Below are positions 13,906 through 19,693 of a DNA stretch of 36,266 nt, piece after piece. The notes beneath the pieces are model-generated. The model did no database searches and was not told where the DNA came from. It saw only the letters and a list, made by a program, of their open reading frames with translations. Position 1 is the first letter of the stretch. Every line of letters starts with the position of its first letter. This DNA is from Verrucomicrobiota bacterium (GTDB taxonomy: Bacteria > Verrucomicrobiota > Verrucomicrobiia > JABWAM01). A program made the translations under genes and the position numbers. The DNA is taken from positions 1 to 36,266 of the forward strand of contig JACQHZ010000417.1 of assembly GCA_016198745.1 (NCBI GenBank), written 5' to 3'.

Positions 13906-14763
13906 TCACATCTTTCGCAAGACGGCCGCATCGCCCTCCCGTATCGGCCGGTCTGGGTCCATCTGTTCGATGATCGCCAGCGCCGCATTTTCACGAACCT
14001 CGGCCAGCGTAAGCGCCGCCAGCACCGTTTTCCCCCGCTGAACGAGAAAGGGCATCCCCACTCTCGCGCCATGTTTGCGGCCGATCCCCAAAGCGGCCAC
14101 GCCCAAATCCAACCGCACCCCGATCACCTTCGCCGAAGAGGGGGGCGTTGAATCCGTCGCCGTCAAAACGCCTCGCGGCCTGGGCTCCTCCTTTCCGGCG
14201 AGAACTTTTTCGGCCTGCCGCAGTTCCGCCTCCAACAGCGCCCGCTTGGCGGGGTCCACCCTTTCGGCGGACTTGAAGGCTTGCTGAGCAGCGAACTGGA
14301 GCTGGCGCAGGCGTTTCTGCAATGCCTGCATCTCACGATCCGTCTCAGCGAGAATCTTCAAGGCGTTCAAAAGAAACGCGCGCCATTCTCCCGCGCTGCG
14401 AACCTCCTCATCGTCCGCAACCATGCCCGATCGCGCGTCGCTCTGGCGGATTTCGAGACGGGCGAGCCGGTTCGTCGCAATCGCCAGTTCTCTCTGACGC
14501 GCGCCGTCCATTTTCCGCAACTTCGCGTTTTCCTGGCGCAATGCCTCCACTGCAATTTTAAACTCCTGCTTCTCCGAATCAGCCGCTGTTTGCGGCGCCG
14601 CGCACCAGCCCGGCGGTGTCTCCATCCACATCGCCAAAATAAAAATTAACAAAGAACATCCAACTCCAACCACCAATGTCCCGGCCGTCCGGGCCCCCTG
14701 CCTCCCGCATCTTTTCGGGACATCCAGGCAACCTCTCCGTGTTCGTGGATGAGGCGCGCTCAT
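13906..14763 (-). CDS. Membrane-anchored coiled-coil protein of unknown function inside the S10 cluster
   Basis: This is not a ribosomal protein. From ATG 14763 the 285 residues form a basic N-terminal segment, one transmembrane helix (about 29-48, TLVVGVGCSLLIFILAMWM), and a long charged helical region (about 62-192) with Glu, Lys, Gln and Leu typical of a coiled coil. A compact C-terminal domain follows (about 212-285, VIGVRLDLGVAALGIG, HGARVGMPFLV, REGDAAVL). The C-terminal pattern resembles beta domains seen after coiled coils in some PVC proteins and loosely MreC; this is not a firm assignment. The active part probably faces the periplasm. It starts 14 bases after rpsS and ends 38 bases before rplV, on the same strand, so it is likely co-transcribed. 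An upstream in-frame extension would overlap rpsS and is rejected. Confidence 0.75.
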   Translation of the reverse strand: MSAPHPRTRRGCLDVPKRCGRQGARTAGTLVVGVGCSLLIFILAMWMETPPGWCAAPQTAADSEKQEFKIAVEALRQENAKLRKMDGARQRELAIATNRLARLEIRQSDARSGMVADDEEVRSAGEWRAFLLNALKILAETDREMQALQKRLRQLQFAAQQAFKSAERVDPAKRALLEAELRQAEKVLAGKEEPRPRGVLTATDSTPPSSAKVIGVRLDLGVAALGIGRKHGARVGMPFLVQRGKTVLAALTLAEVRENAALAIIEQMDPDRPIREGDAAVLRKM

Positions 14764-14777
14764 GCCATCGAAAAACC

Positions 14778-15059
14778 TTATTTCGCCGCGGCCTTCTCGG
14801 TATGCGCGCCATGTTTCTTGAACGTCCGCGTGGGCGAAAATTCGCCCAGCCGATGTCCAACCATGTTTTCCGTCACAAATACCGTGTTGAAAACCTTTCC
14901 GTTGTGAACCAGGAATGTGTGCCCCACAAATTCCGGGACCACCATGGAGCGGCGCGACCATGTCTTGATCGGCTTTTTGTTTCCGGAACTGGTCATCTTC
15001 ATGACCTTTTCCATCAGGTGATCATCGCAAAAAGGGCCTTTTTTAAGGGATCGGGACAT
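14778..15059 (-). CDS. rpsS: 30S ribosomal protein S19
   Basis: The 93-residue protein starts [19 protein letters not shown] and continues [49 protein letters not shown], an unmistakable S19. It forms part of the 30S head near the A site and bridges to the 50S. It follows rplB with a 32-base gap that holds a heptad-like stretch. The next gene is the unrelated coiled-coil protein rather than rplV. Confidence 0.98.
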
Positions 15060-17075: not shown

Positions 17076-17726
17076 TCAGCTCTTGGTCGCCGCGGATCGT
17101 TTCTTGATGGCCGGGCGCACCACCAGATAGGAACCGTTGGCGCCGGGCACCGATCCGCGCACAAGCAGCAAATTCTCGGTTTCGCGCACCTGCATCACGG
17201 GAAGGTTCTGAGTGGTGATCCGCACGTCGCCCATATGGCCGGGCATTCGCGAGTTTTTCCAGATGTACCCCGGCCAGGCGCGCATCCCGATGGCGCCGGG
17301 CCGGCGGTGCGCCTTCGATCCGTGCGCCGCTCCGCCGCCCGCAAACCGGTGACGTCGGACCACCCCTTGGAACCCTTTGCCCTTGGAAATCCCGATCACA
17401 TCCACAAGCTGTCCAGCGGTGAAACGCGACACCGTAACCGCGTCGCCGACGTTCAGGTTCTCGCCCTCATCGGCGCGGAACTCACGGATGAACGCCTTCG
17501 GCGCGCTTTTCACTTTCTTGAAATGCCCTTTCATCGGCTGCGGCGTGTTCTTCTCCTTGCGGTCGCCAAAGCCGATCTGGCAGGCGGCGTACTTGTCTTT
17601 TTCGACCGTCTTTTTCTGGAGAACCGGGCATGGCCCGGCTTGGATGACCGTGACGGGGTGCAGCACCCCCTTGTCATCGTAAAGCTGGGTCATCCCCAGT
17701 TTCCTGCCTAAAATTCCAATGCTCAT
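17076..17726 (-). CDS. rplC: 50S ribosomal protein L3
   Basis: The 216-residue protein starts MSIGILGRKLGMTQLYDDKG and has ISKGKGFQGVVRRHRFAGGGAAHGSKAHRRPGAIG and MPGHMGDVRITTQNL, all L3. Its long loop approaches the peptidyl transferase centre. The Gln that is methylated in E. coli (GSIGQNQTPG) is Met here (GAIGMRAWPG). The start lies four bases after the stop of the embedded 542-residue gene, and the best ribosome binding site (GGTGA) overlaps that stop codon, so rplC translation is probably coupled to it. Confidence 0.97.
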   Translation of the reverse strand: MSIGILGRKLGMTQLYDDKGVLHPVTVIQAGPCPVLQKKTVEKDKYAACQIGFGDRKEKNTPQPMKGHFKKVKSAPKAFIREFRADEGENLNVGDAVTVSRFTAGQLVDVIGISKGKGFQGVVRRHRFAGGGAAHGSKAHRRPGAIGMRAWPGYIWKNSRMPGHMGDVRITTQNLPVMQVRETENLLLVRGSVPGANGSYLVVRPAIKKRSAATKS

Positions 17727-17730
17727 GATT

Positions 17731-19359
17731 TCACCGTGATTTCGCGCGGTTCAGCGCGTTGGTGGCAGCCGCCTCGCGCTCTTTTTCCTGGCGCTGGATT
17801 TTAGCTTCCGCTTTGGCTTCTTCCTCGTCCATTCGCTTTTGTTCAGCCTCAATCCCTCTGCGCCGCAGTTCTTGACGTTCGTAAGTCTTTCTGTATACAG
17901 CAAACCAATTGGTAAGGCTTAATGAATTCGCAAGAAATCGTGACGATCTGTGCTCGGTATAGGGTATTGCCATCCCAAATACGACTGATTGACCATCCGT
18001 CCACCATCTTGGCTTATATATAAATTCACCGACTTTCAAACGGTCACCCTCCACAGACCCCCAAAAGACGGATTTATCGCTCTGAGTCAAGACAGGTTTC
18101 TCAATGAGTTTAATAGCGAAAATGGAACGCGCAAGTTGGCTGACCTGATTAACAACCGTAGATGCCTTAATGTTTGCCAAGATCGATTGCGCGTTGGTGG
18201 AATGAATTTGCACCAACAGGAGATCAAGGCCCCAAAAGATATCCACCCACTTGTCATCCAACGCGTAGCGCACTCGAAATCCATCTGAACCTCCATCGGT
18301 GCAATAGTGAACCATCGTGCTGACATGGTTCCGAACAACTTCCGGAGCAAGCATTCGTTCTTGATACAGCAACCTGCCCTCTAAGCAGTAACGCTCCAGT
18401 CCACCTTGAACTCCATTGGTTGTATAAGATTGTGACAACAACATCTCAGGAACAGGAGACGGGTCATAATCAGAAATGACCCTGTTCAAGAGAGGGAATG
18501 TTTCCACCTGGCTGACTGCTTTGGTCGGATGAATCTCCGACTCGTCATTGGCCTCTGCCATTTTTTTACGCTTTTGGTTATAGTTTACGGCATGTGTAAT
18601 CCGACCAGACCAATTTGTTTGCAAATCAATTTGATTCGTCGCAAACCGACGGGAGCTAGGTTCGCCTTCATAGTGAAAAAAGGCGGCGCCTGCAAATACA
18701 ACGCTCTGGCCGTCTGTCCACCAGGGTAAAGCACACGCCCATGTTTTCGGCGCGCCATTTTGATGAATGCCGATCATTTCCTTGCCTTGTTCTTTAAGCA
18801 CCTTGAGTTCAATCTTGTTTCCATCTTTGAATATTTCCCGAGCAATACCCGCCAACTTTACGACGGCATTGTTCTTATCAGCAGGCGTTAGCAACGGAGT
18901 GCCATCCGAGGATTTCACACACACCAGAAGCACGTTGCCATTCTGAACAATTTGGAGCTGATATTTTTTCGTTTCATAGATTGCTTGAGCGGCGTCGAAT
19001 TTGCTTCCGGAAGTGTAGTGGATCCCATATTTGCATGGAAGTTTTCTTATCGGCTCAATCAGGATACCGGCGATTACGCTCTGAGCCTCGCTAAGCGCCA
19101 TTTTTTCTGTTTCGGTGCCGAACGTGCTGTCTTGATATTCATAATTCAATAGCTCAGAAAGAATCTTAGATGGTGACGTTTCATGAAACATCTGAGAAAT
19201 CAGAGGCATCTCATCAGCGTCCAGAATTGTTGCATTAAGCACAAACATGAACAAAGCGGGTTGAAGAAAGCGCGGATGCTGCTCCGAGAGCATGGGCAGG
19301 CAAGCCGCTTGCGGATGAACGGTCAGTCCCTTGATCGCGATTTGCTCGATTTGTTCCAT
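17731..19359 (-). CDS. Unknown two-repeat protein embedded between rpsJ and rplC
   Basis: The 542-residue product is unlike any ribosomal protein. It contains an internal duplication: WWTDGQSVVF occurs at residues 213-222 and 452-461. Each copy is followed by SSR-RFA-type and L-NW motifs and preceded by a helical hydrophobic stretch, so two related domains of about 130-200 residues are likely. The C-terminus (about 490-535) is a highly charged Glu/Lys/Arg/Ala helix. A hydrophobic stretch at 31-48 (FLQPALFMFVLNATILDA) could be a signal peptide if translation starts at Met24 (19290), so the start and the location in the cell are uncertain. DNA here is visibly richer in A+T than the flanking ribosomal genes, which suggests acquisition. 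It lies 25 bases after rpsJ and four before rplC on the same strand, so it is almost certainly in the operon. I recognise no family. Confidence 0.75.
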   Translation of the reverse strand: MEQIEQIAIKGLTVHPQAACLPMLSEQHPRFLQPALFMFVLNATILDADEMPLISQMFHETSPSKILSELLNYEYQDSTFGTETEKMALSEAQSVIAGILIEPIRKLPCKYGIHYTSGSKFDAAQAIYETKKYQLQIVQNGNVLLVCVKSSDGTPLLTPADKNNAVVKLAGIAREIFKDGNKIELKVLKEQGKEMIGIHQNGAPKTWACALPWWTDGQSVVFAGAAFFHYEGEPSSRRFATNQIDLQTNWSGRITHAVNYNQKRKKMAEANDESEIHPTKAVSQVETFPLLNRVISDYDPSPVPEMLLSQSYTTNGVQGGLERYCLEGRLLYQERMLAPEVVRNHVSTMVHYCTDGGSDGFRVRYALDDKWVDIFWGLDLLLVQIHSTNAQSILANIKASTVVNQVSQLARSIFAIKLIEKPVLTQSDKSVFWGSVEGDRLKVGEFIYKPRWWTDGQSVVFGMAIPYTEHRSSRFLANSLSLTNWFAVYRKTYERQELRRRGIEAEQKRMDEEEAKAEAKIQRQEKEREAAATNALNRAKSR

Positions 19360-19384
19360 GGCGATACGTCAATGAGGGAGTCGC

Positions 19385-19693
19385 TTAGATTTTAATCTGG
19401 ATGTCCACGCCGGCGGGGAGGTTGAGTTTCTTGAGTTCATCCACCGTTTTTGCCGTCGGATCGATGATGTCCAAGAGCCGCTTGTGCGTGCGGATTTCAA
19501 ATTGTTCCATGGATTTCTTGTCCGCGTGCGGCGACCGGTTCACGGTGAACCGCTCCACGTGCGTCGGCAGCGGAATCGGTCCGGCGACCTTGGCGCCGCT
19601 GCGTTTGGCGGTTTCGACAATCTCGGTGACCGAGGTGTCGAGCACGCGGTAATCAAACCCTTTGAGCCGAATTCGAATGCGTTGATGTTCCAT
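19385..19693 (-). CDS. rpsJ: 30S ribosomal protein S10
   Basis: The 102-residue protein reads [40 protein letters not shown], then [28 protein letters not shown], the S10 signature. Besides its role in the 30S head, S10 (NusE) joins NusB and NusG in antitermination complexes. It normally opens the S10 operon directly before rplC; here an unrelated gene stands between them. It lies about 90 bases after fusA, across a gap with heptad repeats of two kinds. Confidence 0.98.

Follow-up and report, generated by a model that had tools for sequence, protein, structure and literature searches.

The S10 operon is a textbook example of frozen gene order, and foreign genes inserted into conserved operons are a general phenomenon; our literature search found no paper on insertions at the rpsJ-rplC junction. 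Such foreign genes are typically non-disruptive, lie on the same strand as their hosts and have coupled stop and start codons, features that the gene described here shares. It differs from them in its site, the rpsJ-rplC junction with its normal gap of 2 nt, and in apparently being itself a chimera of two accessory genes.

The window, that is, the whole stretch of 36,266 nt that was analysed, is part of contig C361 in an assembly of 6.4 Mb (522 contigs, 74% complete, 3.1% contamination). Its minus strand carries, in this order, rpoB, rpoC, rpsL, rpsG, fusA, rpsJ, the insert, rplC, rplD, rplW, rplB, rpsS and onward. The inserted reading frame (17731-19359, minus strand) runs from an ATG to a TGA stop and encodes 542 aa. 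The rpsJ stop codon ends at 19385, leaving 25 nt (19360-19384) ahead of the insert, and the rplC ATG at 17726 follows the insert's stop after 4 nt (17727-17730); these coordinates agree with the sequence-only reading, which had described a same-strand gene of 542 residues at exactly these distances. Both the insert and rplC are single-copy in their own genome. The features of the locus, in the direction of transcription, are:

19385-19693, minus strand: rpsJ (uS10), intact, upstream neighbour; 96% identity to rpsJ of the relative G002 over 102 aa
19360-19384, minus strand: 25-nt spacer GCGACTCCCTCATTGACGTATCGCC, without Shine-Dalgarno sequence
17731-19359, minus strand: inserted reading frame, apparently chimeric, 542 aa, single copy in the genome
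19261-19359, minus strand: codons 1-33, apparently derived from the N-terminal end of a ParB-like gene (MEQIEQIAIKGLTVHPQAACLPMLSEQHPRFLQ), with the join near codons 31-36; based on N-terminal matches, profile score and GC drop
19210-19269, minus strand: signal-peptide-like hydrophobic segment FLQPALFMFVLNATILDADE, about 30 residues inside the reading frame; aligns with the homolog's signal peptide
18550-19209, minus strand: repeat domain 1 with the first WWTDGQSVVF; 30% identity to the G001 homolog, BLASTP E 3e-35
17875-18504, minus strand: repeat domain 2 with the second WWTDGQSVVF; BLASTP E 1e-20 to the G001 homolog, 5e-13 to domain 1
17734-17874, minus strand: charged helical C-terminal tail; alignment with the homolog, QRQEKEREAAATNALNRAKSR / QRQEAERSGGSTNKVMRTPPK
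17727-17733, minus strand: TGA stop and AATC spacer ahead of the rplC ATG, coupling geometry
17076-17726, minus strand: rplC (uL3), intact, downstream neighbour, the sole copy found in the genome; 81% identity to G002 rplC

The motif WWTDGQSVVF occurs twice, once in each half of the protein, and the two halves can be aligned over their full length (25% identity, BLASTP E 5e-13); on this alignment, one domain is present in two copies. Charged residues mark the C-terminus (EEAKAEAKIQRQEKERE). Both the duplicated domains and the charged end had been noticed in the sequence-only reading.

We found rpsJ and rplC adjacent, with no more than 62 nt between them, in 30 of the 31 relatives that carry both genes on the retrieved stretch. 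The gap was 2 nt in all three other family members tested, including G001 (Verrucomicrobiia bacterium STC_78), the genome that bears the homolog described below. No relative examined has the insert at this site. This adjacency marks the insert, as judged from gene order, as a lineage-specific insertion, with its genus represented by one genome in the comparison. The remaining relative has the longest gap, 186 nt (G018, contig C23). Two genomes of one genus, G034 (contig C141) and G050, stood out in another way: rpsJ was not found near or upstream of rplC. In G034 the 3.9 kb upstream of rplC are occupied by other genes, and rpsJ therefore seems to have moved in that genus.

The insert also differs from its host in base composition. 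Its GC content of 47.6% is below that of 99.4% of the host ORFs sampled (n = 166, median 58.6%), and its GC3 is below that of 98.8% of them. The earlier statement that this DNA is more A+T-rich than its surroundings thus holds for the gene overall (GC 0.476 vs 0.581 in sampled host contigs), but not for its first ~100 nt, where GC is 0.53-0.67 before it settles at ~0.4 from about codon 31 on.

This deviating 5' end has a counterpart of its own, which the sequence-only reading had not recognised. In a search with residues 1-39, matches came from the N-termini of ParB-like reading frames in the relatives G007 and G014 and in the insert's own genome, there on contigs C504 (E 0.003; 48% over 29 residues) and C160. 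A profile of these four N-termini gave the insert 27.9 bits, compared to at most 4.0 in 2000 shuffles, and the two pairs of these sequences, used separately, gave 18.8 bits each, compared to at most 3.4. The homology ends at about residue 31-33; at the same point GC falls from 0.55-0.67 to ~0.4, and the alignment with the signal peptide of the G001 protein begins. These three borders agree and therefore argue for a single join at codons 31-36: the insert is apparently a chimera, in which a ParB-like start was fused to the body of an exported-protein gene. With the C504 and C160 proteins it has the N-terminal ~31 residues in common, including LT-HP-A--LP--SE, whereas it lacks the ParB_N domain itself and all that follows. 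The C160 protein passes the Pfam cut-off for ParB_N (PF02195) and the C504 protein falls just under it. By these comparisons the insert is not a member of the ParB-like family and carries a 5' remnant only, because Pfam detects no ParB_N nuclease/CTPase-type domain in it and the homology stops near residue 33. On C504 the ParB-like gene and the next gene, whose product has a signal-like N-terminus, share an overlap of 4 nt, and on C160 a gene with a signal-like N-terminus likewise follows the ParB-like gene. Such pairs in the insert's own genome would thus be a natural precursor of the chimera.

Runs of 11 C occur only three times in the 6.4-Mb genome, and two of these (C504:2306-2316 and C160:2364-2374) sit at the 5' ends of the two ParB-like genes. 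By hand count, the ATG that precedes the tract shares its frame with the ParB domain on C160 but not on C504. These look like phase-variation (contingency) tracts controlling the ParB-like genes. The genome furthermore encodes two small proteins with signal-like N-termini that are 63% identical (L079 3945-4511 and L090 1390-1980). The first follows a ParB-like gene and the second a gene related to that for the 493-aa protein in the G001 operon described next; we read the pair as accessory genes that are probably interchangeable between the same slots.

A search of 384 genomes of the class, 388 of the phylum, GTDB contigs, viral contigs, plasmids and phages yielded a sole homolog of the insert body, a single-domain hypothetical protein of 279 aa from a genome of the host's own family (G001, JAQUAF010000096.1); viral contigs, plasmids and phages contained none, and as sampled here the protein family is very rare. 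The homolog's N-terminus clearly resembles a signal peptide, and its gene comes third in a tight operon, in which an RHS-repeat protein (Pfam RHS_repeat, E 1e-6) and a protein of 493 aa, itself with a signal-like N-terminus, are encoded ahead of it; 9-10 nt separate the three genes from one another. This operon lies away from the intact rpsJ-rplC junction of G001. Its RHS area is flanked by a repeat of 463 nt with near-perfect identity (99.8%); by eye, the reading frames of this repeat resemble insertion-sequence integrase fragments.

Both repeats of the insert match the homolog over the whole domain (E 3e-35 and 1e-20). The two proteins have in common the WWxDGxxVVF core domain (30% identity), a signal-peptide alignment and a charged tail; they differ in that the homolog has one domain instead of two, its own start and signal peptide, and a place in an RHS-repeat operon outside the ribosomal operon. 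The insert does not share this context, its neighbours being rpsJ and rplC, and we do not treat as defining a context known from one member. Its signal-like segment falls opposite the homolog's signal peptide in the alignment, but lies ~30 residues from the ATG and is less hydrophobic (1.7 vs 2.7). The tails align through the last residues of both proteins, which makes the 3' end of the insert look original. A borderline match in G506 was a short stretch of a 420-aa ORF that resembles, by eye, a beta-propeller oligogalacturonide lyase, and was taken as chance. The insert has no matches in Pfam, NCBIfam, PHROGs or PADLOC, and neither PDB sequences nor Foldseek gave anything significant, so that no translation-related family or fold emerged. 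AlphaFold models from a three-row alignment reached a pLDDT of 60-61 and had no significant PDB match; the two models agree only on the order helix, four strands, helix, strands, long helix. Because of the homolog, our best guess for the insert body is a predicted exported accessory protein.

The spacing of the insert resembles that of the ancestral junction: 4 nt separate its stop from the rplC start, compared to 2 nt between rpsJ and rplC in relatives, and a stop 4 nt ahead of a start is a usual geometry for re-initiation. A GGTGA does overlap the TGA stop ahead of rplC, as had been proposed for a ribosome binding site at this position. The claim is nevertheless weak, because its anti-Shine-Dalgarno pairing reaches only -2.2 kcal/mol and most ribosomal genes in the window have no Shine-Dalgarno match (rplW, rpoC, nusG and rplB have one); the coupling geometry itself is real. 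The insert start likewise has no Shine-Dalgarno match, and no promoter or terminator signal above chance expectation was detected within the insert. Many operon genes, among them rplK, rpsG, fusA, rpsJ and rpsS, are preceded by TTTCTAATTTCTAA-like stretches in place of a Shine-Dalgarno sequence; these could represent a repeat found between genes or an element that enhances translation.

We consider it probable, at roughly 60%, that a foreign exported-protein gene was neutrally inserted and kept through restored stop-start coupling. Foreign DNA would have entered the rpsJ-rplC junction, bringing a gene for a predicted exported protein from an RHS-associated accessory family. At or after insertion, most of the preceding ParB-like gene would have been lost, which could have joined what remained of it, the start and ~31-33 codons, in frame to the exported-protein gene immediately upstream of the signal peptide. 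The chimeric frame would be read within the ribosomal transcript, and ribosomes finishing it could re-initiate on rplC, as after rpsJ in relatives. The insert would thus have been retained because its neighbours stayed intact and coupling was rebuilt, and not through service to the ribosome. We found no transposase, integrase, terminal repeats or target-site duplication at the insert, no repeats shared by its borders and no Rfam match, and the DNA-level donor search returned short chance matches and no donor copy; the route is therefore unproven. An AAATC 5-nt repeat at both borders was rejected as a target duplication, since the implied empty site would miss the rpsJ stop.

Against this explanation, the ParB homology spans ~31 residues, and a two-domain frame with 542 uninterrupted codons may be under selection. 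Selection might have favoured promoter capture, by which an exported accessory protein, such as a partner of the RHS operon or a protective protein, gained strong, growth-linked expression from the S10 operon. The long intact frame with both repeats and tail, the retained signal-like segment and the non-disruptive, same-strand position with plausible translational coupling would all fit this idea, which we nevertheless hold to be rather unlikely, given the weak start region without a Shine-Dalgarno sequence, the internal and less hydrophobic signal-like segment, and the occurrence of the insert in one genome only. A more demanding version, in which the chimera is a functional, selected exported-protein gene and also an obligatory translated spacer that locks synthesis to ribosome production and makes rplC translation dependent on it, appears doubtful.

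An assembly artefact, in which two false joins placed an unrelated fragment in this metagenome-assembled contig, is unlikely. The fragmented, incomplete and partly contaminated assembly, the foreign composition and the lack of a second genome with this arrangement would be compatible with it; however, both joins would have to fall exactly between the stop and start of two essential genes, both intact and in the same orientation, the borders share no repeats, and the chimeric frame would require a third join. Least probable is a function tied to growth or translation, as an operon regulator or ribosome factor, which the sequence-only reading had put first. Only the position speaks for it; the gene is missing from this site in all relatives examined, it has a signal-peptide-like segment and no translation-related family or fold, and its homolog is an exported-type protein in an RHS-repeat operon. 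That relatives keep rpsJ and rplC adjacent and the related gene lies elsewhere argues against a conserved functional tie and, together with the ancestral-like spacing, favours the second earlier suggestion of an accidental insertion kept by coupling.

The locus is a concrete case of how a long foreign gene may sit in the S10 operon without breaking expression, with neighbours intact, the same strand and a rebuilt stop-start distance. It also illustrates the apparent formation of a new reading frame from two accessory genes, one of which supplied its start, and it draws attention to an unnamed family of predicted exported proteins. As far as the evidence goes, nothing new is learned about ribosome function.

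Other extra sequences were observed among ribosomal genes. Between rpsS and rplV, a reading frame at positions 13906-14961 of the window encodes a coiled-coil protein whose N-terminal segment is hydrophobic. It is conserved at the corresponding position in G002 (55% identity) and represents a further extra gene of the S10 operon, in this case one that is shared within the family. In G040 (C60:14769-15521), rplC matches in two pieces ~108 nt apart within the same open frame, which indicates an in-frame insertion in uL3.
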